From assembly GCA_018830325.1 (NCBI GenBank), contig JAHJSQ010000032.1, positions 1 to 44,315 on the forward strand: a DNA stretch of 44,315 nt. The letters are read 5' to 3'. The notes beneath the pieces were generated by a model that searched no databases, was not told the DNA's origin, and was given only the letters and a program-made list of their open reading frames with translations. Source of the stretch: Gammaproteobacteria bacterium. GTDB taxonomy: Bacteria > Pseudomonadota > Gammaproteobacteria > Methylococcales > Methylomonadaceae. Shown here one piece after another: positions 2,013 to 37,340 of this stretch; the first letter of the stretch is position 1, and each line of letters opens with the position of its first letter. A program made the position numbers and the translations under genes.

Positions 2013-2180
2013 TGTTATAAATAAGTTTTAAAAGGCGTCTTTCCGTCTTAGCCAATGTGACTTCGATACCATTTATTGTCACCTAACGTTCATGAAGAAG
2101 CTGCCATCACCCCGGATAATGAAAGTTCTCGGGGTGGTGAGGTTGCGGTCATTCGCCCGACAGGACGCCGTGAACCCAGC
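2013..2180. repeat. dispersed intergenic repeat, related copy at 14022-14282
   Basis: Two blocks recur near 14.0-14.3 kb. The first, with CTTAGCCAATGTGACTTCGATA and CATTTATTG (about 2013-2080), matches 14208-14282. The second, CTAACGTTCATGAAGAA followed by GCGGTCATTCGCCCGACA (2081-2173), matches 14025-14100. The order of the two blocks is reversed in the other copy. They flank the 67-bp palindromic unit in both places. No protein is supported here. Confidence 0.6.
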
Positions 2181-2240
2181 ACCTAAATTATCCAAGACAA
2201 TTAACCATAGCCAATTGGCTATGGAATTTAGGTACTGGGT
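2174..2240. repeat. 67-bp palindromic repeat, copy 1
   Basis: Terminal repeats ACCCAGCACCTAAATT at 2174-2189 and AATTTAGGTACTGGGT at 2225-2240 bound a 67-bp unit with an inner palindrome around CCATAGCCAATTGGCTATGG. It is flanked by GGACGCCGTGA on the left and GAATACGTCC on the right, as in other copies. The following 2241-2455 has no supported gene; it contains a GC-rich imperfect inverted stretch around CAGATTTTGCAGG / GCAAAAATCTG (about 2299-2323). Confidence 0.8.
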
Positions 2241-2455
2241 GAATACGTCCTTGTAGGCTCGACGGCGGAATCTGATTGCCATGGATGGCATGAATGCAGA
2301 TTTTGCAGGAGCAAAAATCTGCCCTGCCGCCGACGCCTGCCGGTCGAGCAACCGCACTCTCTTCGGAAGCGGCTGAGGTTTAATATCCGCAGACTTATTA
2401 AGCAACCTCGTTCCTAAATACGGCGATAAATGCTCAATCTGGGTGTCAGGCAATT

Positions 2456-4405
2456 CTAATGACCTATTAAATCCAGATATTCGGCTTCGCTCAGTATGCG
2501 AACGCCGTGTTTTTCGGCGGCATTTAATTTTGTTGCGCCTACCTTTTCCCCGATGACTAGGTAGTCGGTTTTACCGCTGACCGCGCTACCGACTTTCGCG
2601 CCCATTGCTTTGGCTTCGCGAATCATATCCTCGCGCGAGCCTTGTTGCATCGTGCCGGTGAACACCAAGGATTTGCCGGCGATAGGGCTTTGTCCCTCAG
2701 GCATTTCCTGGGTTTTGGTTTCGTTCAATGCAAAACCTAAACGATATAAGCGGTTGAACAACGGTTTGATTTTTTTCAAACCTTTCAGCACGACATCGGC
2801 GGTTTTTTCGGCGAAGCCTTCGAGCGCGACGATCTCTTCTTCGCTCAACGAAAAAATTTCCGGTAAACGGTAGTGCGCGAGCAGTTTTTCGCAGTTGCCC
2901 AGCCCCATTCGGAACACGCCGAACGCAGCCAGAAAACGCCAGTCCTCGATCGGTTCGGACAAACTGCGCTGCAATTGATCAACTAGATTTTGCGACTGTT
3001 TCGGGCCGAAACCCATCGCTTCGAAATCCGATGCGTTCAGTTGGTAGATCTTATCGATCGTTCGGATATCGTTATCGTAAAGCTTTGCGATCGTTGCCGG
3101 GCCGAAGCCGTCGTTATTGCCGAGTACCCGAAAAAAGTGTTCTATCGAATGACTGACTTGGGCGGGGCAGTCGAAATTGTTCGTGCAGTATAAAAAGTCG
3201 CCATCCCAAACCAACTCGCTGCCGCAACTCGGGCATTGTCCCGGAAGGTCGGGTTCGGCCGGTGTGATGACTTCCTCGATTTTGGGGATTACTTCGCCAC
3301 TTCGGGCGAGTTTAATCAGTGCACCGGGACCGATGCCTTTGTCGACGACCATTTTATAATGGTGAGCGGTCGCTCGTTGTAACAGTGCGCCGCTCAAGCG
3401 GATCGGTTCGACTTCGACGACCGGTGTGATGCGGCCTGAGCGCGAGGTTTGCGGTACGACTTGGAGGATTTTGACTTCGGCTGTCGCGACATTCTCTTTG
3501 TAGGCGATTTGCCAACGATGATGATGGCGGGTGGCGCCAATATGGGTTTTTATTCGCTCGTCGGTAATTTCCAGTATTACGCCGTCGACGTCATAATCTA
3601 CCGCATGCCAGATTTGTTTTACGATCTCATCGACGCGCTCGGAAAGTTCTGTCCAACTGCCTTGCCAAGCGGGGAGCATGGCAAATGGAAAAAAAACCGC
3701 GGCCCGATCCTTGATGGCCTGTTCGGCATGTTGCTCCAGTTCTTTTTCCTTGATGACGCTGGCCTGAAAATTACGCGTGTTATCGAAAAACTCGGATAGG
3801 TAACGCTGAAAATAGGTTTTGCTGACGACGATTTCGCCGGCGCCTAGTCCGCGGGAGCCATTATCCGCGACTTGTAAGCCGCGCTCGAAGACGCGTGTGA
3901 TGTCGGTGCCTTTTCTGCCGTCGCCGCGCGTATAAAGCCGTTCGCCGTCGTCATAGGCTGCATAGCCGTCCAGTTTCGGCGTTACCTTGAAAACGACCGA
4001 ATCGAAGGCTATGTCCAGTTCGTCGGCCGCTTTTTGGATACGCTTGGCCCAATTCTCGATTTCGCTCTGGCTATAAGCCTTGTCGGTCGATAGCATTCTG
4101 ACCGGTAATTCAACCGTCTTACCGGCGAAAGCCGATTCCGGTTCGACGCGCGTTACGAAAGGGTGGTTCGGATGACGGCGCTTCAGTTCGGCGATAAAAG
4201 TAAAGTCGTACTCGGCATCGCTAATCAGTGCATCGCCGCCTCGATATAAGGCATTGACTATCTCGATGAATTCGATGAGTTCCTTGTCATTGAGTTTCGC
4301 TTCGTCGGTCGCGCGCGAGGCGATTGCCCATAGTTTTTTTTCGTTTAGATGTTTTAATTGAACATTTGAGTGCTCGAGAATGTCTTTTTGATTATCGGTT
4401 AGCAT
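2456..4405 (-). CDS. NAD-dependent DNA ligase, divergent
   Basis: Seals nicks in duplex DNA using NAD+. The order of domains is that of LigA: Ia region with ISDAEYD (62-67), adenylation domain with the nucleophile lysine in KLDG (K144), TRGDGRKGTDIT, DVDGVIL (272-278), an OB-fold region, a Cys4 zinc site (C391, C394, C407, C413), helix-hairpin-helix repeats, and a C-terminal BRCT domain (about 573-649, with VFTGTM). Length (649) is typical or slightly short for LigA (about 670). Several usually invariant stretches are altered: the RW.IAYK motif is preceded by RHHH and the VGRTG motif reads TSRSGRI. It may therefore be a second, diverged ligase rather than the housekeeping copy, which would lie elsewhere. 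I leave the symbol empty for that reason; ligA is the alternative. The start has only a weak ribosome site. Confidence 0.85.
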   Translation of the reverse strand: MLTDNQKDILEHSNVQLKHLNEKKLWAIASRATDEAKLNDKELIEFIEIVNALYRGGDALISDAEYDFTFIAELKRRHPNHPFVTRVEPESAFAGKTVELPVRMLSTDKAYSQSEIENWAKRIQKAADELDIAFDSVVFKVTPKLDGYAAYDDGERLYTRGDGRKGTDITRVFERGLQVADNGSRGLGAGEIVVSKTYFQRYLSEFFDNTRNFQASVIKEKELEQHAEQAIKDRAAVFFPFAMLPAWQGSWTELSERVDEIVKQIWHAVDYDVDGVILEITDERIKTHIGATRHHHRWQIAYKENVATAEVKILQVVPQTSRSGRITPVVEVEPIRLSGALLQRATAHHYKMVVDKGIGPGALIKLARSGEVIPKIEEVITPAEPDLPGQCPSCGSELVWDGDFLYCTNNFDCPAQVSHSIEHFFRVLGNNDGFGPATIAKLYDNDIRTIDKIYQLNASDFEAMGFGPKQSQNLVDQLQRSLSEPIEDWRFLAAFGVFRMGLGNCEKLLAHYRLPEIFSLSEEEIVALEGFAEKTADVVLKGLKKIKPLFNRLYRLGFALNETKTQEMPEGQSPIAGKSLVFTGTMQQGSREDMIREAKAMGAKVGSAVSGKTDYLVIGEKVGATKLNAAEKHGVRILSEAEYLDLIGH

Positions 4406-5836: not shown

Positions 5837-5840
5837 GAAA

Positions 5841-8380: not shown

Positions 8381-8678
8381 TATACCTTTCGCACTTCAAA
8401 TTTCGGCAGTGCCTAAGGAGGCACCGGGGTGCCTGGCAAAGGCTTTGCCAGCATGGATGCTGGCATAGAGCCTACATGGACGTATTTACCCAGCACCTAA
8501 ATTCCATAGCCCATTGGCCATGGTTAATTGTCTTGGATAATTCATCCAGCACCTAAATAAGCCATGATTTTGATTCATTGCCAAAGACCTATGGAATTTA
8601 GGTGCTGGATTTAGGTGCTGGGTTTACGGCGTCCTTTGACTGGCCCCCGGTGCCGAATTTTGATCTACGATGGGTATA
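8381..8678. mobile_element. MITE-like element with TATACC terminal repeats, copy 1
   Basis: The ends TATACCTTTCGCACTTCAAA at 8381 and, on the other strand, TATACCCATCGTAGATCAAA at 8678 are imperfect terminal inverted repeats of about 28 bp; both continue into a TTCGGCA. Related elements lie at 23041-23268 (inverted relative to this one) and, left-truncated, up to 37340. Inside is a 67-bp palindromic unit which itself carries a second one. No ORF encodes a transposase, so mobility would need help in trans. A TA target duplication is plausible from the TATA ends but cannot be proven. Confidence 0.75.
8488..8623. repeat. 67-bp palindromic repeat, copy 2, interrupted by copy 3
   Basis: The outer unit runs 8488-8542 and resumes at 8612-8623. 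Joining the two gives exactly 67 bp with complete ACCCAGCACCTAAATT ends. A second 67-bp unit sits in its right arm at 8544-8610, with ends ATCCAGCACCTAAAT and ATTTAGGTGCTGGAT and a different core. This is direct evidence that the unit has inserted as a discrete piece. Confidence 0.8.
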
Positions 8679-14026: not shown

Positions 14027-14100
14027 CGATCATGAAGAACGGCAAATGAAAGCTCTTTGGTGACGGAGAGTGCGGTCACTCGCACGACATGATGCCGTGA

Positions 14101-14116
14101 ACCCAGCACCTAAATT
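14101..14116. repeat. half copy of the 67-bp palindromic repeat
   Basis: ACCCAGCACCTAAATT is preceded by GATGCCGTGA as in full copies, but no matching right arm follows. Instead the sequence runs into the CATTCCCAAG palindrome at 14131. This copy was truncated or replaced. Confidence 0.6.
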
Positions 14117-14130
14117 ACGCAAGTTTTGCT

Positions 14131-14155: not shown

Positions 14156-14313
14156 CAGTTTCGGAACCTCCGCTTCCCGTGTCGTTTCCCAAGCAGAGCT
14201 CTCATCGTTATACATAAGTCAAAAATTACCCTTTTGCAATCTTAACCAATGAGACCTCGATAGCATTTGTTGCCACTTAACATTAGCGGATCACCTAACG
14301 CTAGACTAACCGC

Positions 14314-14405
14314 GTAGGGTACGCTGTGCGTACCATGGTAACCCCGCAATGTTCATGTGCCAACCGAGCCGCCAGGGCACGACTTTGGTACGCGCAGCGT
14401 ACCCT
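14314..14405. repeat. TACGC/GCGTA inverted-repeat element, copy 2
   Basis: GTAGGGTACGCTGTGCGTACC at 14314 and GGTACGCGCAGCGTACCCTAC ending about 14406 are inverted. The spacer is shorter than in the 8260 copy. The remainder of 14027-14519 is repeat-derived and holds no supported gene; the promoter for the REC-kinase should lie in 14406-14519. Confidence 0.65.
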
Positions 14406-14519
14406 ACAATTTATGTATAACGAAGAGAGCAGAGCTTGGTAAACAACGATGAATGCAAATTCACGAATTTTCACAGTAATTGCCGCAATTGATTCGGCCT
14501 GACAACGCGAGAAATCGTC

Positions 14520-22558: not shown

Positions 22559-22600
22559 TGGAGTACGAGCGCTCACTGATTGGTTATCCTGGCCGGGGTT

Positions 22601-22653
22601 TACTCCTCGGCAATTGTGCTCCTACATTGCCCTAATACACGCCATCCGAGGCG
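22601..22653. repeat. 53-bp repeat also found inside the 36903 element
   Basis: A stretch with TACTCCTCGGCAATTGTGCT and CCTAATACACGCCATCC matches about 60 bp inserted in the 36903-37130 element (near 36971-37030). It thus exists both alone and as an insert. Confidence 0.6.
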
Positions 22654-22716
22654 TAATGCATTTTCTACATTCGTGACATCCTAGTCACTCAGCAGTTGCC
22701 GAGGGACTAGGCATAG

Positions 22717-22881
22717 GTATCTACACAAGTACTTGCCCCTTTTTTCTTGCGGGAGAAGGTTGGGATGAGGGGAATATAAGTGGTTGTTTTTACTCCACCA
22801 CCGCAACCCTCTCCAACAGGAGAGGGTGCTAGGCCAGCTTATAACTCATTCTATTTATGATATAAAAACTTGTGTAGTTAC
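22717..22881. repeat. inverted-repeat element with CTACACAAGT ends
   Basis: GTATCTACACAAGT (22717-22730) and ACTTGTGTAGTTAC (22868-22881) are inverted with two mismatches; the flanks also match partly. Inside is CCCTCTCC...GGAGAGGG and a GGGAGAAGG segment, a type of repeat common between proteobacterial genes. A separate hairpin CCCTTTTC-AAAAGGG lies at about 22926-22940. No gene is supported in 22559-23040. Confidence 0.5.
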
Positions 22882-23040
22882 TTATGGGGACTAGGGGATA
22901 TTGTTAAAAAATCCCCTTTCAATTTCCCTTTTCAAAAGGGAGGCTAAATCAGCAACCTGTTTTATCGAAAGACCACCTGAGGGTGCCGTAAAACCTTTTT
23001 ATGGTTTTTGTTGCTATCTTTGTTCTGTCGAATATTTTTT

Positions 23041-23268
23041 TATACCTATCGCAGATCAAAATTCGGCACCAGGGGTCCGTCAAAGGACGCCGTGAACCCA
23101 GCACCTAAATTCCAAAGTCCATTGGCTATGGTTAACTATCTTGGATAATTTAGGTGCTGGGTGAATACGTCCATGTAGGCTCTATGCCAGCTCCATGCTG
23201 GCAAAGCCTTTGCCGCACACCCTGGCGCCTCCTCAGGCACTGCCGAAATTTGAAGTGCGAAAGGTATA
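23041..23268. mobile_element. MITE-like element with TATACC ends, copy 2
   Basis: TATACCTATCGCAGATCAAA at the left and GAAGTGCGAAAGGTATA at the right are the same ends as the 8381-8678 element in opposite orientation. At 228 bp it carries one 67-bp palindromic unit and the segment CGTCCATGTAGGCTCTATGCC. It lacks the nested second unit found at 8544. Confidence 0.75.
23096..23162. repeat. 67-bp palindromic repeat, copy 4
   Basis: Perfect ends ACCCAGCACCTAAATT and AATTTAGGTGCTGGGT bound exactly 67 bp. The core has ATTGGCTATGG and ACTATCTTGGAT. It lies inside the TATACC element. Confidence 0.8.
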
Positions 23269-23819
23269 CTTCCATTTTTTGAATCGATTTCGTCAATTAA
23301 TACCGGAATGATAAGGTTACGATAAATTATTAGTGGCTTGATTGAACAAAAAGGTTATACTTTATCCGTTAGAATTTTTTGCTTCAAAGGGTCTGTTATC
23401 ATATTATTCTGAGATTACATCCATAAACCTTTTATAAGTAATTGATTAATATAGTTAAGTTTGTTTAAAAAATAAATTAAACCAATTCAATTATCTTTAA
23501 TCCTAGAAACAGAAGAGACGGAAAGCGCGAAGTAACACCGTAGGGTTAAATAGGGTAAAAAGCGCTAAACTGCCGATTTTTGTTAAAACTTATCAGTTAA
23601 CTATTTTCAAATAGTTATATTCCTAATGTTTTAATTGCTCAATTGAAGTAATTCGGTCCGCATTGCCTTGTGTGACCGGCTACGATAAGCCAAGCAATAG
23701 ATTTCGGCAATGGTCAGATTGCTCTCGAATAGAGTATTTATTTCAGTTGAATCCGACGTCGCACTTTTTATGTCGTTCACTTTATGCGGAGCCATAATAT
23801 TCAGGTAATAGAGGTGTTT
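23269..23819. other. 551-bp non-coding leader region
   Basis: AT-rich at first (23320-23480) and then mixed. No ORF with a ribosome site is visible. A GC-richer block at 23510-23580 (AAAGCGCGAAGTAACACCG, AAAGCGCTAAACTGCCG) could be a structured leader or a small RNA, but I cannot match it to a known riboswitch. The promoter of the following sensor gene should lie here. Confidence 0.3.
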
Positions 23820-23840
23820 ATGTCATGGTTTGATTGGTAA
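23820..23840 (+). CDS. possible six-codon leader peptide
   Basis: ATG at 23820 encodes MSWFDW then TAA at 23838-23840. GAGGTG at 23811-23816 sits close upstream. The next gene starts six bases after this stop and has no ribosome site of its own. Translational coupling through this mini-ORF is a reasonable reading; chance is the alternative. Confidence 0.3.
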   Translation: MSWFDW

Positions 23841-23845
23841 GTCCG

Positions 23846-26641: not shown

Positions 26642-26661
26642 TCGCTTTCTTGATTTGCAAT

Positions 26662-27201
26662 TTACGCGTAAAACTCATATGGGTTATCGACTGATTCTTG
26701 TTCGATAGACATAACGGCTTGATTCAGAGCGATCAATTTTTTTTCTTCCTCGATTTGTAGGCCGATCATATAGAAAATAGGCATCCACAACGGGTTGATC
26801 AATAATCCGCCGAGCACTGATTTAAAGGTACGCTTGATATTTTTAAAGGGATTAAAAGATTGACCGAGCGATTCATAGGGCGATGCTTTAAGCGCTGCTT
26901 GAATTGGTCTGAGTTTGGATTGTTCCGGTTCTTCAATCATCATTAGGAAATTCGTCAATTTCCGTTCGATTTTTCGATAATTTAATCGCGCCAGTCCCGC
27001 CGATACTGCGAATGTAATAGCGACGAAAGGCAATAATACTGCCGGAGGCGCTATCGGTGCAAAAAAAGTCGACATCATTACGATACATAAGCCTGCCATC
27101 ACAATGTCCTCTCCACGTTCGACATCACGATCAATGGACTCAACGATTTTAGTTACGTTATCGTCCAGACTATTAGCTGAATTGTCTGTTTCTCTATTCA
27201 T
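26662..27201 (-). CDS. small membrane protein of unknown function
   Basis: 179 residues from the ATG at 27201, which has GGAG eight bases upstream; the frame also opens from a TTG at 27246. Two adjacent hydrophobic segments (about 33-52 and 54-73) form a hairpin with a short loop APPAVL. The rest is cytosolic and helical. A third hydrophobic stretch (PLWMPIFYMIGL) lies near 145-157. No catalytic motif is visible and I do not recognise the family. It is convergent with the degenerate GGDEF-EAL gene and divergent from the GAF-GGDEF gene. Confidence 0.7.
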   Translation of the reverse strand: MNRETDNSANSLDDNVTKIVESIDRDVERGEDIVMAGLCIVMMSTFFAPIAPPAVLLPFVAITFAVSAGLARLNYRKIERKLTNFLMMIEEPEQSKLRPIQAALKASPYESLGQSFNPFKNIKRTFKSVLGGLLINPLWMPIFYMIGLQIEEEKKLIALNQAVMSIEQESVDNPYEFYA

Positions 27202-27640
27202 TTTGCATGCTCCACAAGAAGAGTCAAACTGAGAGTATCCATACAAAGCTTACCTCTTTAAAAGGTTATCATCAAAGTTTCAACGAACAAGTTGTGCTAT
27301 AAAAAATTATATCAATAAGAAAGATGACGGCATTCGTAAATTTTTATTTTACTGCTAATCTTAATGTGCGAACTGTAGAGATGGTTATTACTCCTTATCC
27401 GAGTGGAAAACGTCTAGTTTTCAGTTGGTTTTGGGCGCGTTTGTTGGGAATGGCGGTAGTATATCGGCTTTTGCTTCAGCAAAACTGGTATTTCCGTCAT
27501 CCTTCGTGGTTAGGATCTGCCGTCAAGTTCCCTAAAGATGAGTTTTTTCCGGCTCCTAAATCTTTCCATCTTTCTTATTGGATCGAATTTCGCTAAAACA
27601 TCGAACAGTTTTATTAATAGGGGAGTAGGGCTTTTTATTA
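27202..27640. other. 439-bp divergent intergenic region
   Basis: Lies between divergent genes and must hold both promoters. A 90-codon frame at 27324-27596 (plus) has no domain and no good ribosome site, so I do not call it. AT-rich DNA at 27290-27330 could contain a promoter. Confidence 0.3.
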
Positions 27641-28789
27641 ATGAGAGATTTAGCTTTGGAAGAAGATTTAACGACCGATTTGTCGATATTACAAAGTCAT
27701 TTAGATGGCATGATCAATCGGGTCCAACAGAACAGTAATGCCTTAAGGCGATTTCAAGCATTTGAAAGACGCTTGCTTAACTTAAATTCTTTATCCGAAA
27801 TGATTATTCATATCCTTGAAGACGGGAAGGCGTTTTTCGACCTCGATGCCATTAGTCTATGTTTGGTCGATAAAGAAAACGAATTATCGGAGTATTTGAT
27901 ACAAGACGGTTTCGATATCAAGGCCGCAAGGCAATTGACCTTGCTTAAAGATCGTCATCAGCTGAAAACTCTTTTCGGTTTTGCAGTAAAGCCCTATATC
28001 GGTGCCTATCATCCAAAATGTTCTGAATTTTTTAATTATACTGATCGAAAGCCTATTAGTGTCGCATTGATTCCGTTAATCCGACGGGGAAAATACCTCG
28101 GATCGTTGAATTTCGGTAGCTTTCAGCAGGAACGTTTTATTGATACGATGGCAACTGATTTTATCGAACATATGATTTCGGTGGTCAGTATTTGTTTGGA
28201 AAATAATCTCAATTTCGAGATGATGCGCAGGACCAGTTTTATCGATACACTGACCGGCGTCAACAACAGACGTTTTCTTGAGCAAAGACTTGGAGAAGAA
28301 ATCGATCGTTGCCAACGAAGCGGTGAGCCATTGTCTTGTTTGTTTCTCGATATCGATTATTTTAAGTCAATCAACGATACCCACGGACATCAAGCCGGAG
28401 ATTATGTTCTAAAACAAGTGGCCGGATCGGTAAAAAATCTGCTACGCAATAATGACGTTCTGGCTCGATACGGTGGAGAGGAGTTTGTAGCTTTGTTGTC
28501 GAACCTTAATGAAAGTAAATTAATAGCTATCGCTGAACGTATAAGATCTACGATTGAATCGCTCAATATGGTTTTTGATGGTAAACCGATTCAGGTGACT
28601 ATTTCGATAGGGGCCGCGTCTTACTCGGCATCTAAGCATATACTTTCGAGCGCAGCCGATATTGCGATGCGGCTAATTGAGTCGTCCGATGCTGCGTTAT
28701 ATCAAGCCAAGCACAACGGTCGCAATCGTATTGAAAATAATGGCTTTATTATTGACCGAACGCTAATGGAAAGCGCGGTATCCTATTAA
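27641..28789 (+). CDS. GAF-like plus GGDEF diguanylate cyclase
   Basis: A 382-residue soluble protein. The N-terminal 200 residues contain a coiled coil (LQSHLDGMINRVQQNSNALR) and a GAF/DUF484-like domain with SVALIPLIRRGKYLGSLNFGS. The GGDEF domain (about 205-370) has DTLTGVNNRRFLE, LFLDIDYFKSINDTHGHQAGD and an intact GGEEF active site (278-282), so it should make c-di-GMP from two GTP. The inhibitory site RNND (269-272) is present, which suggests product feedback. SDAALYQAKHNGRNRI is the usual domain end. The signal sensed is unknown. GGGGAGTAGG lies upstream of the ATG, spaced a little far. Confidence 0.9.
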   Translation: MRDLALEEDLTTDLSILQSHLDGMINRVQQNSNALRRFQAFERRLLNLNSLSEMIIHILEDGKAFFDLDAISLCLVDKENELSEYLIQDGFDIKAARQLTLLKDRHQLKTLFGFAVKPYIGAYHPKCSEFFNYTDRKPISVALIPLIRRGKYLGSLNFGSFQQERFIDTMATDFIEHMISVVSICLENNLNFEMMRRTSFIDTLTGVNNRRFLEQRLGEEIDRCQRSGEPLSCLFLDIDYFKSINDTHGHQAGDYVLKQVAGSVKNLLRNNDVLARYGGEEFVALLSNLNESKLIAIAERIRSTIESLNMVFDGKPIQVTISIGAASYSASKHILSSAADIAMRLIESSDAALYQAKHNGRNRIENNGFIIDRTLMESAVSY

Positions 28790-28894
28790 CCTAGAAAAAG
28801 TATTTAACCATCAAGAATAAGAAGTTAGGATTCGGTCAAAAAGTAGGTGTCGGCGGAAGGGAAAGCCGCCGTCTAGCCTTACACGGACGTATTC

Positions 28895-28961
28895 ACCCAA
28901 CATCTAAACTCCAAAGTCCATTGGCTATGGTTAACTATCTTGGATAGTCTAGTTGTTTGGC
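28895..28961. repeat. 67-bp palindromic repeat, copy 5, degenerate
   Basis: ACCCAACATCTAAACT begins a 67-bp stretch whose core (CCAAAGTCCATTGGCTATGG) matches copy 4, but the right arm is decayed (AGTCTAGTTGTTTGGC). It is flanked by ACACGGACGTATTC, the complement of the usual flank. A GGCGG...CCGCC stem lies before it (28852-28872). An old, drifting copy. Confidence 0.6.
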
Positions 28962-29263
28962 CTGGGCATGCCAAGCGAGCCGCCGAACTCTTAGCTCCAG
29001 GAAGTTATTTATCGCGAAATCCTTAATTGAATAGTTTGATATGCATTTGCAAAACAACTTCGCTATTTTGAACGGTTATTCATAGTTTATGAAAATATCC
29101 TCTTGAAGTACTTAAATAATCCCTCCAAGCTATCACTAGCCTAAGTATAAAATCACAACTTCCGCTCTGTGCGTTCAATATAACTTCTCTGTTCCGTGCC
29201 ACATGTCAAAAATTAGACTTTTTATCGGCTTAGACTTGTTATCATAATGTCATCTTACAATAT

Positions 29264-29269
29264 TATAAT
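29264..29269 (+). promoter_or_regulatory. candidate -10 box of the V-ATPase operon
   Basis: TATAAT lies 35 bases upstream of the first ATG in an AT-rich region. No -35 at 16-18 bases is convincing; TTGTTA at 29237-29242 is 21 bases away. The remainder of 28962-29303 has no gene. Confidence 0.3.
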
Positions 29270-29303
29270 CCGCTTATATTTAGCCTAATTTTCGGGGTAG
29301 CAC

Positions 29304-30665
29304 ATGATCGAGCATATGGTCAGACATTACAATATTTTGTCCATTGTCGGTAATATCATTACTGTAAATGTTGACAGTGCCTTTGCAAACCAAGAAATCA
29401 CGACTCGATTCGGGGATTTAGCCGAAGTCGAAGACGTCAACGGCAGCGAATCTTTGGCTCAAGTCATCAAAATCGATGGAAGCAAGGTGGCTTTGCAGGT
29501 TTTTTCAGGAACTCGGGGCATTTCGACCGCAGCTTCGGTGCGGTTTTTAGGTCATTCGATGCGAGTGACTTATTCGGCGAATATTCTCGGCCGGATTTTT
29601 AATGGTACGGGGGGGCCGATGGACGGTGGTTCGATGCTTAAACCGGACCCGAAAGTGACGATTAACGGTGCGTCGGTGAACCCGATGAAACGAGTGTTAG
29701 CTTCGAAAATGATCCGAACGCAAGTTCCGATGATCGACCTATTCAATTGTCTGGTGGAAAGTCAGAAAATACCGATTTTCTCGATTTCGGGTGAGCCGTT
29801 TAACGCATTTTTGGCTAGAATCGGTATTCAGGCCGATGCCGATATCGTAGTTTTTGCTGGCCTTGGCCTAATTTTCGATGATTTTCATTATTTTAGGTCG
29901 CAATTCGAGGAAGCGGGAGTCTTTGCGAGGACAGTGATGTTTTGCAATCTAGCTTCCGATCCTATCGTTGAACGCCTATTGGTGCCGGATATGGCATTGG
30001 CGGTTGCTGAACGCTTCGCAGTCGAAGAGGGTAAACGGGTATTGGTGTTGATGACCGATATGACCGCTTATGCCGATGCAATGAAGGAAGTCGGTATTTC
30101 AATGGAACATGTACCGTCGAATCGCGGCTACATGGGGGATCTCTATTCGCAGTTGGCGCGCCGATACGAAAAAGCCTGCGATTATAAAGGCGCCGGTTCC
30201 GTTACAATTTTGTCGGTGACAACGATGCCGGGTAACGATGTGACGCATCCGGTTCCGGACAATACCGGTTATATTACCGAGGGTCAGTTTTATTTGCATG
30301 ACGGCATGCTCGATCCGTTCGGTTCGTTGTCTAGATTGAAGCAGCATGTCATCGGTAAGGTCACACGCGAAGACCACGCACAAATCATGAATACGATGAT
30401 CCGTTTTTACGCGGGCTCGGTCGATGCCGAACAAAAGCAGGCAATGGCCTTCGATTTGTCCGATTACGATAAAAAACTGCTCAGATTCGGACAATTATTC
30501 AAAAAACGTTTCATGGACATCAATGTTTCAATTTCATTGGAGCAGGCCTTGGATTTGGGATGGCAAACCTTGGCCGAATGTTTTGAGGAAAATGAACTGT
30601 TGATGAAACAAGCGTTGATCGATAAATATTTCCCGAAGAAAAATTATGGCAAGACTGTCGCTTAA
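29304..30665 (+). CDS. V/A-type ATPase subunit B
   Basis: The non-catalytic nucleotide-binding subunit that alternates with A in the A3B3 head of a rotary ATPase. Family features are the N-terminal beta barrel, ANILGRIFNGTGGPMDGG, MIDLFNCLVESQKIPIFS, IVVFAGLGL, LASDPIVERLLVPDMALAVAERFA and GYMGDLYSQLARRYEKA. The P-loop position is altered (SGEPFNAFL), as normal for B. Length (453) is normal to short. GGGG lies six bases before the ATG. It is the first gene of a tightly packed operon B-D-I-K-E-DUF2764-A. In chlamydiae and spirochaetes the order begins with E, so this gene is in an unusual lead position. Confidence 0.93.
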   Translation: MIEHMVRHYNILSIVGNIITVNVDSAFANQEITTRFGDLAEVEDVNGSESLAQVIKIDGSKVALQVFSGTRGISTAASVRFLGHSMRVTYSANILGRIFNGTGGPMDGGSMLKPDPKVTINGASVNPMKRVLASKMIRTQVPMIDLFNCLVESQKIPIFSISGEPFNAFLARIGIQADADIVVFAGLGLIFDDFHYFRSQFEEAGVFARTVMFCNLASDPIVERLLVPDMALAVAERFAVEEGKRVLVLMTDMTAYADAMKEVGISMEHVPSNRGYMGDLYSQLARRYEKACDYKGAGSVTILSVTTMPGNDVTHPVPDNTGYITEGQFYLHDGMLDPFGSLSRLKQHVIGKVTREDHAQIMNTMIRFYAGSVDAEQKQAMAFDLSDYDKKLLRFGQLFKKRFMDINVSISLEQALDLGWQTLAECFEENELLMKQALIDKYFPKKNYGKTVA

Positions 30666-31248
30666 TAAGGCTTCATTGCATAAAGAAAGCGCTAAACTCA
30701 AGCGCTATCGACAGTATTTACCTTCGCTCGATCTCAAGCGAAGACAGTTGATGGCCGAGCGTGCAAAAGGCTTGGCACGGCTCAAAAATACCGAACTGCA
30801 AATCGAACAGTGCCGGCAAAAAGTTAGCGAAACATTACCGATGCTGTCTTATCGAGAGATTAATTTAAATAACCTGGTTAAAGTTTCGGGCGTTGAAATA
30901 GGCGAAGAAAATATTGTCGGTGTCAATGTGCCGGTATTGATCAATCACAAACTGGCGCTGATGGCCTATTCGCCTTACCTTAAGCCGCATTGGGTCGATG
31001 CGCTGGTTGTGCAATTAAAGATCATGTTGGAATTGAAATTGCGACAACAAGTCGATAGGCAGCGCTTGATGATTTTAGAAGCGGCAGTCAAAAAAGTAAC
31101 ACAAAAGGTTAATTTGTTCGATAAGGTGTTGATTCCTAAAACGGAGCGTAATATACGCAAAATCCGTATTTATCTCTCCGATGCCGAACGAGCCGATGTG
31201 GTCCGGGCTAAAATGACCAAACAAATCCGAATTAAACAGGGTGTTTAA
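30646..31248 (+). CDS. V/A-type ATPase subunit D
   Basis: The central-stalk rotor subunit, 200 residues and nearly all helical, with N- and C-terminal helices expected to form a coiled coil inside the A3B3 ring. It starts RLSLNKASLHKESAKLKRY, the usual LNKxxL motif, and ends VLIPKTERNIRKIRIYLSDAERADVVRAK. The ATG overlaps the end of subunit B by 20 bases, so translation is coupled. No separate F subunit, the normal D partner, is encoded in the operon. Confidence 0.9.
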   Translation: MARLSLNKASLHKESAKLKRYRQYLPSLDLKRRQLMAERAKGLARLKNTELQIEQCRQKVSETLPMLSYREINLNNLVKVSGVEIGEENIVGVNVPVLINHKLALMAYSPYLKPHWVDALVVQLKIMLELKLRQQVDRQRLMILEAAVKKVTQKVNLFDKVLIPKTERNIRKIRIYLSDAERADVVRAKMTKQIRIKQGV

Positions 31249-33045
31249 ATGGCAATCGTTAAGCTGAAAAAGATTACATTTTGCGGCATGCTACCTGATA
31301 AGCGTCAAATTTTGGAGCAAGTGCAAGCATTTGGCGGATTGCATTTGATTCCGCTCACCGATCCACCGGATCAGGAGTTCGGCGTACCTAAAAATACTGA
31401 GGGCGTGCTTGAAGCGCTTAAATATTTGAACGCTTGCGGAAACAAAAGACATCAGATCAGAGACAGTACTCGCTTCGATCTTGAGAAGGTTACCGAAGAA
31501 GTTTTGGCTATTAAATCGAAAGTCCGTGAATATACAGATACTTACGACACATTATTAAAGCGAATCGAAGAGGTCGAGCCCTGGGGCGATTTTCATTTGC
31601 CTGCCACAGAGCACTTGGCCGGCCACCGATTATGGTTTTACATCGTCCCGAAAAGAATGATGAAAAAACTCGAGGGCTTAGATTGGGTTTGGCAGACGGT
31701 TTACCAAAACAATTTGTATTGTTATGTCGTGGTCGTTGCCGAATCCGAGCCGCCCGAAAGTAGCATGCCGGTGGCAAGAACGCATACCGGATCCGTTCCT
31801 CTTTCGACGTTGAAAAGCCAGCTCAGTCAGGTCGAGTTGACGCTCGAGGATTTACAAGCCGAACGAGAGTCTTTAACTCGCTGGATAACTTTAATGACAG
31901 TGCATTTCAGCGAGGCGCTCGATCTAGCGGATTTGACTAAGGCACAAACTATCACGCACGACGAGGCCGGCGTGTTTGCATTGCAGGGATGGTTGCCCGA
32001 AGCACAAATCGATAAATTCAGCCGTTTTGCCGATAATCAAGGCTTGGCTTTATTGGTCGAAGACCCGTCGCCAGAGGATAATCCTCCGACCTTGCTTGAT
32101 AATCCCCGGCAATTGGCTGGCGGAGAAGACATCGTAAATTTTTATCAAACGCCGAATTATTACGGTTGGGATCCATCGGTTGTGGTGTTTTTTTCATTTA
32201 GCGTTTTTTTTGCGATGATTTTATCCGACGCCGGTTATGCCGCGGTTTTCGGATTTATATTGTTGTTTAAATGGCGCCGCCTCGGACAAAGCCTCAAGGG
32301 TCGGAGACTGAGGGTGTTGGCCGCTAATACGGTGGTTATCTCGCTCGTCTGGGGCGTTATTTCGGGCGGTTATTTCGGCTACAGTCCGCCCGAAGAAAGA
32401 TTAGTGTCCGCATTAAAGGTCATCGATATTAACGATTTCGATGGCATGATGCGCTTGTCGATCGCGGTCGGTGTCGGGCATATTGCGTTGGCCAATGCGA
32501 TTCGAGCCTATCGGCGATACCCTTCTTTAACGGCATTGGCCTCTGGCGGATGGCTGTTGGCAGTCGTTGGCGGATTTTGTTTTTGGTTGTCTGAGGCGAT
32601 AGATAGTGTGCTGTTGCGCCAAATGGGCATTATTTTGCCGAGCGTTGGTGGCGTTTTGTTGTTGCTTTTCAGTAGTGAACGCGGTTTAAAACGCTGGAAC
32701 GACTTGTTATGGCGTTTACTGGACGGTTCTAAGAGCTTGATCGGCATTACCCAATTATTCGGCGATGTACTCAGTTATATGCGTTTATTCGCATTGGGTT
32801 TAGCGAGTGCTTCGTTAGCGCTGACTTTCAATCAATTAGCGATGCAGGTTTATCATGCTTTACCCGGCCCCGGTTTGTTGTTTAGTATTTTGATTTTAAT
32901 CGTAGGTCATGTCTTGAATCTGATGCTATGTCTGATGAGCGGGTTAGTGCATGGCTTGCGTCTGAATTTTATCGAGTTTTATAACTGGAGCGTTTCCGAT
33001 GAAGGTTATCCCTTTAAAGCATTTTCCAAAAAAGGAGTCCGTTGA
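31249..33045 (+). CDS. V/A-type ATPase subunit I (a-type, membrane)
   Basis: The membrane stator subunit that provides the ion half-channels. The N-terminal half (about 1-290) is a cytosolic arm with helical hairpins. The C-terminal half has seven or eight membrane helices (from about 315). The essential Arg lies in VLSYMRLFALGLASASLA, the family hallmark. Length (598) matches the chlamydial/spirochaetal type. The ATG follows the subunit D stop directly, and the TGA overlaps the ATG of K by one base. A downstream GH...LMSGLVHGLRLNFIEFYNW segment is the typical end. Confidence 0.92.
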   Translation: MAIVKLKKITFCGMLPDKRQILEQVQAFGGLHLIPLTDPPDQEFGVPKNTEGVLEALKYLNACGNKRHQIRDSTRFDLEKVTEEVLAIKSKVREYTDTYDTLLKRIEEVEPWGDFHLPATEHLAGHRLWFYIVPKRMMKKLEGLDWVWQTVYQNNLYCYVVVVAESEPPESSMPVARTHTGSVPLSTLKSQLSQVELTLEDLQAERESLTRWITLMTVHFSEALDLADLTKAQTITHDEAGVFALQGWLPEAQIDKFSRFADNQGLALLVEDPSPEDNPPTLLDNPRQLAGGEDIVNFYQTPNYYGWDPSVVVFFSFSVFFAMILSDAGYAAVFGFILLFKWRRLGQSLKGRRLRVLAANTVVISLVWGVISGGYFGYSPPEERLVSALKVIDINDFDGMMRLSIAVGVGHIALANAIRAYRRYPSLTALASGGWLLAVVGGFCFWLSEAIDSVLLRQMGIILPSVGGVLLLLFSSERGLKRWNDLLWRLLDGSKSLIGITQLFGDVLSYMRLFALGLASASLALTFNQLAMQVYHALPGPGLLFSILILIVGHVLNLMLCLMSGLVHGLRLNFIEFYNWSVSDEGYPFKAFSKKGVR

Positions 33046-33494
33046 TGGCTGAGGTATTAGTGATTTTAGGATGGATCGGTTTATACGCCCCGATGGCCTT
33101 GGGCGCGATCGGCAGCATTATCGGTTGTGCGATCGCAGGTCAAGCCGCGATCGGTGCGATGCTCGATACCGAAACCGGGCACGGTCGCTATGTCGGCGTT
33201 TCGGCGATGCCGTCTTCTCAGGTGATATATGGCATTGTCGTGATGTTTACACTGAATCGGCCGATTACCGAAGCGAATGCTTCCGGTATTTTTGCGGTAG
33301 GCGTCTTGGCCGGATTCGCGCTGATGTTTAGTGCGATTTATCAAGGACAATGCTGCGCCTCGGCGATTCATGCCTCGAAAGCTAAACCTGAAATTTTCGG
33401 TTTATCGGTCGCTCCTGCCGCGATCGTCGAAGGCTTTGCCGTCTTTGCATTTATTTTCGCCCTCGTTATCAGCGGCGGAATTCCTCAATCTTAA
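33045..33494 (+). CDS. V/A-type ATPase subunit K (membrane rotor), Na+-type residues
   Basis: A four-helix proteolipid of 149 residues made of two hairpins fused in tandem, as in Enterococcus hirae NtpK. Helix 4 has the ion-carrying Glu (E129, AAIVEGFAVF). Helix 2 has SSQVIYG (S58, Q59) and helix 3 has YQGQ (Q100). E. hirae Na+ ligands T64, Q65, Q110 and E139 align to S58, Q59, Q100 and E129, with the same 29-residue spacing between the last two. This points to Na+ rather than H+ transport; Ser for Thr keeps the hydroxyl. The first hairpin lacks a carboxylate, so one ion per subunit is expected. AAAGGAG precedes the ATG; an in-frame TTG at 33042 is less likely. Confidence 0.9.
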   Translation: MAEVLVILGWIGLYAPMALGAIGSIIGCAIAGQAAIGAMLDTETGHGRYVGVSAMPSSQVIYGIVVMFTLNRPITEANASGIFAVGVLAGFALMFSAIYQGQCCASAIHASKAKPEIFGLSVAPAAIVEGFAVFAFIFALVISGGIPQS

Positions 33495-33505
33495 GAGTCG
33501 AGAGT

Positions 33506-34195
33506 ATGAAAGCGGAAAAAGCGGGAATCGCGTCAAGCGGCGTTGAGAAGCTGATCGAGCGCTTGAGAGATGAAGCGATTAATGCCGGACAAGCCAAAGC
33601 CGAGGATATCGTGCTTAATGCTCAAAAGCGTGCGGCTTGGATTATCGAAGAAGCCGAGCAAGAGGCACAGTTATTGATAGAAAAAGCTCGTGTAGAGGCT
33701 GATGCCCTAAAAGCTTCCGGTGTCGATGCTCTACGCTTGGCGGGCCGAGATGCGTTGCTTAAATTACGCGATACTTTGCTTGGCAGCTTCAGTCAGGAAG
33801 TCATGCGCGTGGTCGGAAAACAAATGGCGAAAAGTGAGTTCATCGAACAGTTGATTTTGGCGCTTGCAGGGCGTGTTCGGGAAAAAACCGGCCTTGATCA
33901 AAATTCTAAAATTATTTTTCAATTACCCGAAGACGTTGTCGGCGTCGAGGATTTGCGAAGAAATCCGGAAGAGCTCAAGCAAGGTGCCTTATCGCATTTG
34001 ACTGCCGCGATTGCATCGGATTTGTTGCGGGACGGTGTATCGTTTGAGGTTTCGGATCAAATTAAAACGGGCTTGGTAATCAAGCTCGAAGAGAACAATA
34101 TGATGATCGACTTTACAGATGAGGCGGTCGCGACATTGTTTCTCGAGCATTTGCAACCTCGCTTTAGAGCCCTATTGCAAGGTATCGTTAAGTGA
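33506..34195 (+). CDS. V/A-type ATPase subunit E
   Basis: A peripheral-stalk subunit of 229 residues. The first 90 residues are a long charged helix (KLIERLRDEAINAGQAKAED and then heptads of Ala, Glu and Lys), the C-terminal part a mixed head domain. It fits the short E subunits of chlamydial V-ATPases. The partner helix (G/H) is not encoded in the operon. The last four bases overlap the GTG of the next gene. Eleven bases separate it from K. In chlamydial order E is the first gene; here it follows K. Confidence 0.85.
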   Translation: MKAEKAGIASSGVEKLIERLRDEAINAGQAKAEDIVLNAQKRAAWIIEEAEQEAQLLIEKARVEADALKASGVDALRLAGRDALLKLRDTLLGSFSQEVMRVVGKQMAKSEFIEQLILALAGRVREKTGLDQNSKIIFQLPEDVVGVEDLRRNPEELKQGALSHLTAAIASDLLRDGVSFEVSDQIKTGLVIKLEENNMMIDFTDEAVATLFLEHLQPRFRALLQGIVK

Positions 34196-34878
34196 GCGGC
34201 TGGAATTTTAAATATACCTTGTTACTTAGCAGTCTGCCTGTCCACCCGGTCGATTTATTCGAAGCTCGCCAGCTTCCGGTTTCTCGAATTCAATTAGATA
34301 AACGTTTGGCTTTGTTAGATGCCGAAGATGCCCAGGATTTGGCGCGTATTGAAGCTTTGCTGCATTGGTCGAAAATGAAAGAGCTTGATGACGAAGCCAT
34401 AGTTAAGCAAGGTATGGCCGACTGGTATTCGATCAGGAGTCCGTTTTTAAAAGAGATCGTTATGTGGCGATTGGAATTAAGAACTATTTTATCGGCGCTT
34501 AGAAGAAGGCGGGACGGCATGAACTTAGCGCCGGACATGCCTTTTTACGGCTTTGGCGATCGGTTGCGATTCATTAGACAGCATTGGCGTGATGCCGCTT
34601 TCGGGTTAGATTCTATATTGCCCTGGGTTAGGCAAGCCAGTGAACTAATCGAACAAGATCGATCACTGGAATTAGAAAAACTGATGCTCGAGGTGGTTTG
34701 GCGACATTATCAAAGAGTTGGGCAGGGGCATTATTTCGATTTTCCCGCAGTCGTTATTTATGTATTGAAATGGGATGTCATCAGCCGTTGGTCGAGTTAT
34801 GACAAAGAGCATGCCATGCTGCGCTTCGACGAATTAATCTCGGCCGGACTGGAAGGCGTTTCGATTGAATTTGGATAA
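34192..34878 (+). CDS. DUF2764 protein, C-like subunit of the V/A-type ATPase
   Basis: 228 residues starting with GTG at 34192. Such a protein sits between E and A in chlamydial, spirochaetal and Bacteroidetes V-ATPase operons (DUF2764). It probably takes the place of subunit C as the link between rotor ring and central stalk. Seen here are LLSSLPVHP near the start, WRLELRTILSALRRRR in the middle and RFDELISAGLE near the end; it is largely helical. Assignment rests on operon position and length and on memory of the family; detailed similarity needs a profile search. Confidence 0.75.
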   Translation: MSGWNFKYTLLLSSLPVHPVDLFEARQLPVSRIQLDKRLALLDAEDAQDLARIEALLHWSKMKELDDEAIVKQGMADWYSIRSPFLKEIVMWRLELRTILSALRRRRDGMNLAPDMPFYGFGDRLRFIRQHWRDAAFGLDSILPWVRQASELIEQDRSLELEKLMLEVVWRHYQRVGQGHYFDFPAVVIYVLKWDVISRWSSYDKEHAMLRFDELISAGLEGVSIEFG

Positions 34879-34888
34879 AAACCCTACG

Positions 34889-36730
34889 ATGAATGAAAGC
34901 AAATTGATAGCTGATTTAGATCAAGCGTCGGCGAGAGTCGTCTCTGTTCAGGACGATATCGTTTCGATCGAGTCGGTTGCTGACACGCCGCTGACAAAAA
35001 ATGAAGTCATTTATATTTTGCCGAGCCGAAGCGAAGCTAAACATAAGGAGCGGCTTAAAGCAGAAGTATTGCGTATCTATGGTAATCGTGCCGATGCACA
35101 AGTTTATGAAAATACCTCAGGGGTTGGTGTTGGCGATCCGGTTGTACAAACCAGTGAATTACTGTCGGTCGAACTTGGGCCCGGGCTTCTGGGGCAAGTC
35201 TATGATGGCTTGCAAAATCCCCTCGATTTATTGGCAACCGAATACGGCTATTTTTTGCCTCGGGGCGTCGATTTGCCGGCTTTGGATAAAAATACCAAAT
35301 GGGCATTCACCCCGTGTGTGCAAACCGGTGCAAAACTGTATGCCGGCTGTGCAATCGGAGCCGTTCAGGAGCGACGCTTCAGCCATAAGATCATGGTGCC
35401 GTTCGACATCAATGGAGAGGTCGAGGTCACTTGGATTCAAGAAGGTAGTGTTACGGTCGATGAGGCTGTCGCAAAAATCAAACTGGCCAATGACAAAGAG
35501 CAAATCATTACGCTCAAACAACGATGGCCGATTCGCATGCCATTATCGCAACAATTACTACGCAATAATGTGGTGGAACGGCAATATCCAACCGATCCCT
35601 TGATAACGCATTTACGTTTGATCGATACTTTTTTCCCGATTGCCAGAGGCGGTACCGGCTGTATTCCCGGGCCTTTCGGTGCGGGTAAGACAGTTTTACA
35701 GAGCTTGATTTCGAGAAATTCGGAGGTCGACATTGTTATCGTAGTCGCTTGCGGAGAGCGAGCCGGCGAGGTGGTCGAGACCATTACCGAGTTTCCGTTG
35801 ACGATCGATCCAAAAACCGGCGGATCGTTGATGGACCGTACTATCATTATCTGTAATACTTCGTCGATGCCGGTTGCGGCTAGGGAGGCGTCGATTTATA
35901 CAGGAATCACGCTCGGTGAATATTATCGGCAAATGGGCTTGAATGTATTGTTGCTTGCCGACTCGACGTCACGTTGGGCGCAGGCGATGCGCGAAACCTC
36001 TGCGCGGCTCGAGGAAATTCCGGGCGAAGAGGCTTTTCCGGCCTATTTAGATTCTGCGATCAAAAATATTTATGAGCGAGCAGGCGTAATTCAAAATCGT
36101 GACGGAGGAATCGGAAGTCTGACTATGATCGGCACCGTTTCGCCGGCCGGCGGTAATTTCGAAGAACCGGTTACGCAATCGACATTGAGCACGGTCAAGA
36201 CTTTTTTAGGACTAAGCGCCGACCGGGCCTATAAACGTTTTTATCCGGCTGTCGATCCGTTGCTGTCCTGGTCTCGCTATTTAGAGCAGCTTAGGACTTG
36301 GTATGATCGTGAGCTTATTACAGGGTGGACTGAACTTGTATCTAAAATTTTAGAGTTGCTTGTTCGGGGCGACAGTGTTTATCAAATGATACAAGTTGCC
36401 GGTGAGGAAGGCGTGACTTTGGAAGATTTTGTGCTGTATCAGCAAGCCATATTCATCGATATGATCTATCTGCAACAGGATGCTTTCGACGATGTTGACG
36501 TGTCGGTGCCGCTTGAGCGGCAAAAAGAAATATTTATGCTGATTATCAAGTTGGTCGATGCGGAGTATCGCTTTACCGACCAAAACCATGTGCGGGATTA
36601 TTTTACTCGGCTGACCGGACTGTTCAAAAATCTTAATTATGCGGTTTGGCGTTCAACCGAATATAACGATTTACTCGCTAAAATAGAGAACTTGTATAAA
36701 TCGGCCGCTAATCAACAATTCCCGGCTTAA
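34889..36730 (+). CDS. V/A-type ATPase catalytic subunit A
   Basis: The catalytic ATP-binding subunit of the A3B3 head, 613 residues from the ATG at 34889. The frame opens at a TTG at 34865, which has GGAAGG upstream; either start is possible. The P-loop GPFGAGKT is at 261-268 (K267). CGERAGEV holds the catalytic Glu, and LLADSTSRWAQAMRE and EIPGEEAFPAYL are A-type motifs. VSPAGGNFEEPVTQ is typical of the chlamydial/Bacteroidetes branch. The gene overlaps or abuts the DUF2764 gene. It is the last gene of the operon, whereas in the chlamydial order A precedes B. Confidence 0.94.
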   Translation: MNESKLIADLDQASARVVSVQDDIVSIESVADTPLTKNEVIYILPSRSEAKHKERLKAEVLRIYGNRADAQVYENTSGVGVGDPVVQTSELLSVELGPGLLGQVYDGLQNPLDLLATEYGYFLPRGVDLPALDKNTKWAFTPCVQTGAKLYAGCAIGAVQERRFSHKIMVPFDINGEVEVTWIQEGSVTVDEAVAKIKLANDKEQIITLKQRWPIRMPLSQQLLRNNVVERQYPTDPLITHLRLIDTFFPIARGGTGCIPGPFGAGKTVLQSLISRNSEVDIVIVVACGERAGEVVETITEFPLTIDPKTGGSLMDRTIIICNTSSMPVAAREASIYTGITLGEYYRQMGLNVLLLADSTSRWAQAMRETSARLEEIPGEEAFPAYLDSAIKNIYERAGVIQNRDGGIGSLTMIGTVSPAGGNFEEPVTQSTLSTVKTFLGLSADRAYKRFYPAVDPLLSWSRYLEQLRTWYDRELITGWTELVSKILELLVRGDSVYQMIQVAGEEGVTLEDFVLYQQAIFIDMIYLQQDAFDDVDVSVPLERQKEIFMLIIKLVDAEYRFTDQNHVRDYFTRLTGLFKNLNYAVWRSTEYNDLLAKIENLYKSAANQQFPA

Positions 36731-36902
36731 ACATGTTCTCGCAGTTTAGGGTGGGTGTGGAGCATGCCTGTCCAAGAATGTCGTGAACTTAGCGCTTTAT
36801 CGCGTTAGCAGTTGAAACGGTTCTCTTTCCTACTAAATAAACCATTTAGGAAATAGTCAATGATTGCTTTCCAATACATTGATCGTGGAAGAGGGTACGA
36901 TT

Positions 36903-37130
36903 CAGCAATTCCCAATTTGAGAATAAAAAAGGGTGCGGAGTGTGCTTGGCGAAGATGTCGGCGGCAGAGGCTGATTTTTGCTCCTCGGCAATTGCTCCTG
37001 CATTGCCCTAATACACGCCATCCTTGGCGTTTAGCCGCCGCCAAGTCCCCATGGATGGGATTACGGCGTTCCTCGACAGGCATACCCCGCACCCTGAACA
37101 CGAAGAGATTTCTCAAACTGAGAATTGCTG
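36903..37130. mobile_element. MITE-like element with CAGCAATTCCCA ends, copy 2, with insertion
   Basis: CAGCAATTCCCAATTTGAG at 36903-36921 and its near-complement at 37112-37130 bound 228 bp. Compared with the 168-bp copy at 19261, it has about 60 extra bases in the core, and those match the stand-alone repeat at 22601-22653. It abuts the truncated TATACC element that ends at 37340. The DNA at 36731-36902 holds no feature I can support; no clear terminator follows the ATPase operon. Confidence 0.75.
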
Positions 37131-37340
37131 GGGTACGATTACTCGCTTGACAGGACGCCGTAAACCCAGCACCTAAATGCCATAGCCTATTGGCCATGAT
37201 TGGTTACATAGATAATTTAGGTCTGGATAAATACGTCCATGTAGGCTCAATGCCAGTCCTTCGCCTAGCGTTAGGTGAGGGGACCGAAAACCACTGTGCC
37301 TCCCTTAGGCACTGCCGAAATGTGAAGTGCGAAAGGTATA
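37131..37340. mobile_element. TATACC element, copy 3, left-truncated
   Basis: The right end GAAGTGCGAAAGGTATA and the inner segment CGTCCATGTAGGCTCAATGCC match the 23041 copy. The left end is missing where the CAGCAATT element joins. It contains the sixth 67-bp unit. It lies right at the end of the chemoreceptor gene. Confidence 0.65.
37164..37228. repeat. 67-bp palindromic repeat, copy 6
   Basis: ACCCAGCACCTAAATG starts the unit and AATTTAGGTCTGGAT ends it after 65 bp; two bases of the right arm are lost. The core has CCATAGCC and TTGGCCATG. Confidence 0.7.

Follow-up and report, generated by a model that had tools for sequence, protein, structure and literature searches.

What are the short palindromes that recur between genes in a 44,315-nucleotide stretch of a Methylomonadaceae genome (assembly GCA_018830325.1, contig JAHJSQ010000032.1, positions 1 to 44,315), and why do they lie at the same point of larger repeats? 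This stretch, referred to here as the window, is contig 24 among the 167 contigs of a 4.80-Mb genome. An earlier note, made from its letters alone, had described a 67-bp palindromic unit in six intergenic places between conserved flanks. The results described below make it probable that the unit is a non-autonomous DNA transposon of 65 bp, a miniature inverted-repeat transposable element (MITE), that inserts in the hairpin loops of other repeats and has partly spread with them. Among the observations behind this reading is that a given host repeat occurs both with and without the unit, the two forms differing by its length and a further 4 bp. The unit would be moved by a transposase acting in trans. 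Insertion would take place in a larger palindromic repeat, where a loop or bulge exposes the tetranucleotide TRAA (TGAA or TAAA), and in the genus of the window it would leave a 4-bp target duplication.

The unit consists of CCCAGCACCTAAAT, an interior of approximately 37 bp, and ATTTAGGTGCTGGG, with a 4-bp sequence on either side. The palindrome reported in the earlier note is real, and its length of 67 bp counted one base from the 4-bp repeat on either side. The arms are terminal inverted repeats of 14–15 bp, and the unit has no coding capacity, 65 bp being too short to house a gene; being short, non-coding and bounded by terminal inverted repeats, it has the build of a MITE. The arms are near-invariant, although this is a biased measure because the arms served as the search key, and the interior differs among subfamilies and genera, with shorter forms down to 50–53 bp. 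Near-fixed arms around a variable interior fit ends that would be recognized by a transposase and an interior of little weight, on which some constraint may act.

The unit is widely repeated in the genus of the window (g1). Exact-arm pairs number 104 in the genome of the window and 127, 95, 94, 9, and 6 in five other members of the genus, the 9 being those of Methylotuvimicrobium buryatense 5G (G010; NZ_KB455575.1). Outside the genus, g16 has one genome with 178 and another with 2, and g17 has one with 11, the positions of which agree with the metagenome-assembled genome HGW-Gammaproteobacteria-3. Exact-arm pairs are thus present in 9 of 311 genomes of the order and were not found in the remaining 302. 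The same pattern read backwards gave 0 throughout, compared with 104 pairs in the genome of the window, indicating that the pairs are not due to chance. A single exact arm occurs in 13 of 237 genomes of the family; in four of these it is the sole arm, a number not above that of the backward control (six genomes with one). In G215 (genus g20, without exact-arm pairs), a lone arm near position 3095 of locus L138 is followed by AAGCCATTATTTTT, which resembles the start of one unit subfamily and may be a remnant or a chance match.

Empty sites carry the host without the unit. The empty-site pattern is GGACGCCG-TNNA-TACGTCC. The empty flanks that the earlier note had wanted sought elsewhere in the genome are abundant: the empty form GGACGCCGTNNATACGTCC occurs, with both strands summed, 113 times in the genome of the window, 327 times in G010, 201 in G037, 128 in G060, 77 in G078 (Methylomicrobium sp. 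wino1, NZ_CP024202.1, also of g1), 58 in G093, and 2 in G017. It is also found 1–16 times in five genomes of g6 and g11 that lack any exact arm (G005, G032, G055, G061, and G094), and the host therefore exists independently of the unit. Variation in unit presence, the other expectation raised in the note, was likewise found, as sister species differ at the window's own loci. Such empty sites and differences in presence among related genomes are as seen for MITEs.

The flank had been thought to be part of a wider repeat. It does lie in larger repeats, which turned out to be several large palindromic hosts rather than one. Five host contexts, given the working names H1–H5, carry the unit at the same point, marked here by a slash: ..ACTCGC-TGACAGGACGCCG / TACGTCCATGTAGGCTTGACGGCGG.. 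in H1, AAATTCGGCACCGGGG..GTCAAAGGACGCCG / TACGTCCATGTAGGCTCTATGCCAGC.. in H2, GGAACGCCG / CCCATCCATGGGGGC in H3 (the CAGCAATT element), CCATGGATGGC / TGCAGATTTTGC in H4, and TTTCTAAGGACGCG / TACATCC in H5. A recognizable core is common to H1, H2, H3, and H5. H4 is itself nested in H1, H2, and H3, and some copies, among the matches listed, carry a further module in their own loop. A single empty example of each of four hosts was folded as DNA, without a shuffled control. The examples of H1, H2, and H3 leave the target unpaired, and in the H4 example, a fragment, three of the four target bases are unpaired.

The proposal that the CAGCAATT elements represent an empty version of the site was borne out, as filled copies of that host are present in the genome of the window (e.g., L136, L171, L173, and L192). 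The host is empty at window positions 19262 and 36903 and filled in 19 copies so classed, five of which have TAAA on both sides. H3 has target duplications of its own, 9–10 bp in length, in 12 of the 13 copies checked. Furthermore, a ~1.4-kb element in a g16 genome (G084, L268) ends in CAGCAATTCCCAATTT as H3 does and contains a DDE_Tnp_1 match over the cut-off. Its transposase gene is seemingly frameshifted (overlapping ORFs, or open reading frames, of 327 and 176 aa), and the NCBIfam IS4 profile matched it under the cut-off, at 20.1 of 152 bits. With its ends shared with a transposase-bearing element and target duplications at its sides, H3 is, on these sequence features, a transposon remnant in its own right, similar to a MITE. 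A further MITE family is perhaps represented by the ends CACTGCCATTAAGTTAA, observed on a transposase-bearing locus (L257, G084) and on a short repeat (L233, G037).

The junctions between unit and host were compared in 182 copies collected with 40 bp of flank and at most 2 mismatches per arm, 151 of which are from the genus of the window, 24 from g16, and 7 from g17. In the genus of the window the 4-bp flanks are identical in 106 of 151 copies, mostly as TGAA or TAAA, and the form TRAA..TRAA is seen in 118 of 151. When the flanks were re-paired at random, identical pairs numbered 67.6 on average and 88 at most in 2000 trials, a level that is high because TGAA dominates. Among the H1 and H2 hosts of this genus, 90 of 101 copies have matching 4-bp flanks. 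The G/A variant is matched across the two sides of H1 and H2 hosts (TGAA/TGAA 71, TAAA/TAAA 19, TGAA/TAAA 7, TAAA/TGAA 0; Fisher p 9e-15, based on 97 of 108 H1/H2 rows, the other 11 having other letters). Overall, the flank pattern in the genus of the window is the outcome that would be expected from target duplication. At four loci (L209, L214, and L219 in G037; L038 in G010) the left host flank stops at AAGG, GAGG, or AGGA, and ~10 bp including the left 4-bp repeat is missing; the unit subfamilies differ among them, and recurrent one-sided deletion or shared descent may be responsible.

A number of observations on the junctions weigh against insertion with target duplication as a full account. 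Most of the collected copies were selected by exact arms. The combination TAAA/TGAA, which a duplication would not produce, occurs in 5 rows outside H1/H2, 3 of which are nested composites. The direct repeat is present in 0 of 24 copies in g16 and 0 of 7 in g17. Instead, 16 of the 24 g16 copies have TTCA or TTTA on the left with TRAA on the right, and the palindrome therefore extends 4 bp further; empty sites of like hosts in that genome have TAAA in H3 and TGAA in an H5-like host. Inverted junctions (TTYA..TRAA) are also present in 8 of 151 copies of the window's own genus, seven of them in one H3 sub-lineage. Plain target duplication would not explain the inverted g16 junctions. Later correction of an imperfect palindrome, a symmetric form of 73 bp, or a 4-bp overlap carried along by the element could each give rise to them. 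Two variants were noted in these genera. In g17, the loci L009, L048, and L063 hold the unit as a 53-bp near-perfect palindrome without the 4-bp direct repeat. In G084 (L145 and L156, H3 hosts), the stretch from the right arm of the unit to GGCTTGACGG is gone, as if deleted between two CTGGG repeats.

The idea of a carried overlap is known from conjugative transposons, in which it is termed a coupling sequence. Applied to the unit, it would imply recombinase-type mobility, wherein the element brings 4 bp from its previous site and could form direct or inverted junctions depending on the genus. The left 4-mer indeed goes by lineage: most of g1 has TRAA, and g16 as well as one H3 sub-lineage of g1 has TTCA. 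The right 4-mer is that of the empty site. No recombinase has been linked to the family, and the same picture would arise from an element of 73 bp that is symmetric, or if the palindrome were corrected once inserted. This mechanism is unlikely. A further, rather doubtful proposal is that the unit transposes through a hairpin-loop route, perhaps involving single-stranded or cruciform DNA, with the 4-nt junction taking a direct (TRAA..TRAA) or inverted (TTYA..TRAA) form depending on the lineage. Unit and hosts would then be arranged in layers, each mobile palindrome landing safely in the loop of another.

The unit copies in the window are all at the places named in the earlier note (2174, 8488, 23096, 28895, and 37164, plus a left part at 14101). 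On the plus strand, a 65-bp unit at 2175–2239 lies in an H1-type host between TGAA at 2171–2174 and 2240–2243. Next is an outer unit at 8489–8622 (minus strand; H2-type host), flanked by TTTA at 8485–8488 and 8623–8626 and interrupted in one arm by a nested unit (TCCAGC..GCTGGA, 8545–8609, plus strand) with TTCA on its left and TTTA on its right. Read on the other strand, the nested junction is TAAA/TGAA, the same target class with one difference. This unit-in-unit arrangement recurs, junction included, in wino1 and elsewhere in the genome of the window, and the nested unit was therefore probably copied as part of a composite. At 14102–14123 (plus strand; H1-type host) the left part of a unit, preceded by TGAA at 14098–14101, is broken off by other sequence; it had been placed outside the flanks, whereas its left flank GATGCCGTGAA is present. 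Just after it, at ~14184–14445, is another repeat with many matches in the genome of the window and in G037. The unit at 23097–23161 (minus strand) is intact, with both arms exact, and has TGAA at 23093–23096 and 23162–23165 in an H2-type host spanning ~23041–23268. The copy at 28896–28960 (minus strand) is decayed, and the one at 37165–37227 (minus strand; TAAA at 37161–37164 and 37228–37231) has a decayed right arm. Both outer flanks, attributed previously to all five full units, are found at 2174, 8488, 23096, and 37164; the unit at 28895 retains the left one, GGACGTATTCA, alone, its right end having decayed.

Empty hosts lie among these units. An empty H3 at 19262–19427 has a 9-bp duplication, GTGTAGGGC, at each side, and a second at 36903–37130, with a 10-bp duplication, GGGTACGATT, has entered the host around unit 37165, in its left arm, and is missing from the corresponding place in G037. 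An empty H4 module (CCATGGATGGCATGAATGCAGATTTTGC.., 2279–2322, plus strand) has filled copies elsewhere, at L161, L189, and L197. Separately from the repeats, positions 29304–36730 hold genes similar to a V/A-type ATP synthase operon in a methanotroph; two subunits match PF00006, the first of which also matches the V/A C-terminal domain.

Did the unit enter these hosts repeatedly, or did it enter a few hosts long ago, with the composites then spreading and recombination shuffling units among hosts? Such co-amplification is possible rather than probable. The corresponding loci of sister genomes provide evidence for both. G037 and G010 carry the 14101 host, of H1 type, in its empty form, and in G060 an empty host is accompanied by a second one that bears the window's truncated unit. 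For 37164, the same host in G037 holds a unit of another subfamily, G010 has empty cores only, G078 a single degenerate arm, and G060 no good arm. The H2-type host of 8488 is empty in G037 and G010, in the orientation opposite to that of the window; G078 and G060 lack it. At 2174 the window has a whole H1 host with the unit, and no arm was found in any of five sister genomes, as co-amplification would have it; at 23096 none of four has an arm. At 28895 there is no arm in G037, G078, or G010, and in G060 a different host contains a nested composite. The recurrence of unit-in-unit composites with an identical junction also favors co-amplification, as do the five chimeric hosts among 101 (three with H2 left and H1 right, two with the reverse). 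In addition, H3 sub-lineages retain their own junctions: of the eight copies in g1 with TTYA..TRAA, all but one are preceded by a left flank near ctatcgaggaccgccg, and the TAAA/TAAA copies instead have the left flank ctgtcgaggaacgccg or one near it.

Other findings weigh against co-amplification. Both orientations of the unit relative to H1/H2 are present (A in 78 of 108 rows, B in 22, unclear in 8), the unit occupies five host contexts, different unit subfamilies are found in one corresponding host, and TGAA or TAAA is matched on both sides within H1/H2. Unit and host distances do not correlate in Mantel tests carried out within host type and orientation (r 0.03, 0.13, and 0.01; p 0.27, 0.12, and 0.36; n 35, 29, and 9, respectively, with H1 orientation B, n = 6, left out); for the left flank alone, the group of 29 gave r 0.18 and p 0.06. 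This test has little power: the left and right halves of the hosts correlate at 0.12, −0.06, and 0.49, and because host halves hardly correlate with each other, the missing correlation of unit and host is weak evidence for separate insertions. The chimeric hosts and the lineage-specific H3 junctions speak against purely independent hits, and recombination or joint spread must therefore also have played a part. The preferred reading, a MITE inserting in hairpin loops, includes partial spread with the hosts.

A different explanation is that the unit is a functional RNA or DNA hairpin under selection, such as a terminator, processing site, or protein-binding site. RNA folds of four units gave strong hairpins on both strands (−27 to −35 kcal/mol), and the units of the window are intergenic in that they lie between the long ORFs; contrary to a strictly intergenic location, two short minus-strand ORFs (2079–2453 and 36805–37197) overlap units. 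Interior pairing was tested in the main subfamily alone, one of three planned groups, with shuffles as the sole control (66 sequences, 6 interior pairs). In this group the share of paired cells, 96.5%, exceeds that in every one of the 500 shuffles (mean 95.1%, maximum 96.2%), and 6 cells are altered on both sides, compared with a shuffled mean of 2.4 (6 reached in 7 of 500). The effect is small, compensatory changes are few, kinship can lift pairing over shuffles without any structure, and the interior and its predicted structure vary between subfamilies and genera; the case for a conserved interior structure is consequently weak. A role as terminator or processing site, raised in the earlier note, found no support: no terminator-like match falls on the units at 23096, 28895, and 37164 (window positions 20001–38000 scanned), and the Rfam search of the unit gave no match at the gathering score. 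Two promoter-like consensus matches lie over units (23122–23149 and 28974–28946), and the region total of 23 is below the 30.8 of the shuffles. Presence of the unit is also not conserved at corresponding loci. A selected hairpin function is very improbable.

The preferred reading requires a transposase acting in trans, and the search for one counts against it to the extent that no transposase with the ends of the unit was found among PF13701, PF01609, PF05598, and the single-arm loci; many transposase families and matches lie outside this set. An IS1380/piggyBac-type mover, suggested by the 4-bp repeat together with the CCC ends, was considered and rejected, as PF13701 has no match in G000, G010, G037, G060, or G078 (G093 left out) and no arm pair flanks the gene at 20 PF13701 loci from G043 and G084. 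For DDE_Tnp_1 (PF01609), 30 loci and 20 stretches from 127 matches have units near some of the genes, never paired around one, and the five DUF772 (PF05598) matches, all in G037, have no arm pair. Twenty single-arm stretches (G149 and G099 left out) contain no near-exact arm pair at insertion-sequence spacing. The partner of the single arm is mostly a mutated arm ~40–50 bp off, and weak 3-mismatch matches also occur (e.g., L134 at 1399 and 2206). With the transposase missing, the mechanism class is only inferred; a DDE-type transposase would be the mover, and it would recognize the target not by sequence alone but by its shape, unpaired or palindromic.

The anatomy of the unit also resembles that of REPINs, inverted doublets of repetitive extragenic palindromes (REPs) that are associated with RAYTs (REP-associated Y1 tyrosine transposases). 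In the part of PMC3116915 drawn upon here, REPINs share with the unit inverted conserved arms and ends, a variable interior, a hairpin, and a high copy number. The genome of the window contains three Y1-family matches. Two of these loci have no arm (at up to 3 mismatches) in their 1.5-kb flanks and the third has one arm ~1.4 kb upstream, so that the unit, unlike REPINs, is not found beside a Y1 gene. The unit differs further in its specific host site and in its 4-bp duplication in the genus of the window, which would not be expected of Y1 transposition. Movement of a REPIN-like element by a RAYT is highly unlikely.

Bacterial MITEs are, like the unit, short, geneless, largely intergenic, and present in many copies, with terminal inverted repeats and direct repeats, a description taken partly from general background and partly from the relevant portion of PMC10969869. 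Compared with bacterial MITEs generally, as far as that portion describes them, the unit is very short, lies mostly at one position in other repeats, has no autonomous partner found, and lacks the direct repeat in a second genus. In the sections of PMC1525189 considered, the insertion sequences (ISs) IS1397, ISKpn1, IS621, ISPsy8, ISPpu9, and ISRm22 target an exact point of an intergenic REP palindrome, with ISPsy8 and ISRm22 inserting at the palindrome axis with direct repeats of 3 bp and 6 bp. The unit resembles these in its fixed insertion point within a palindromic repeat and, in the genus of the window, in its short direct repeat. Unlike the REP-targeting ISs, which are full ISs with a transposase and have 5–9 copies in the genomes quoted there for ISPsy8, ISPa11, and ISRm22, the unit has no transposase of its own, is geneless, and has ~100 copies; moreover, at least one of its targets (H3) is itself MITE-like. 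QMITE2 of Coxiella, the target of IS1111, offers a case of a mobile element in a MITE, as the full IS entered two MITE copies according to the passages of PMC10969869 concerned. The difference is that here what is probably a MITE occurs in other repeats, many times. No description of the unit was found in the open-licence literature searched, which leaves print at large open.

The genome of the window carries mobile elements nested within each other, with ~100 unit copies mostly at one loop position of larger hairpins. Because hosts with empty and filled sites coexist by the hundreds in related genomes, whether the target is chosen by shape or by sequence is directly testable. The intergenic mosaic helps explain why, in this genus, gaps between genes differ so strongly across species whose neighboring genes are ~85–95% identical. 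That such elements may be largely harmless would have a simple explanation in their use of the loops of other repeats as landing sites.

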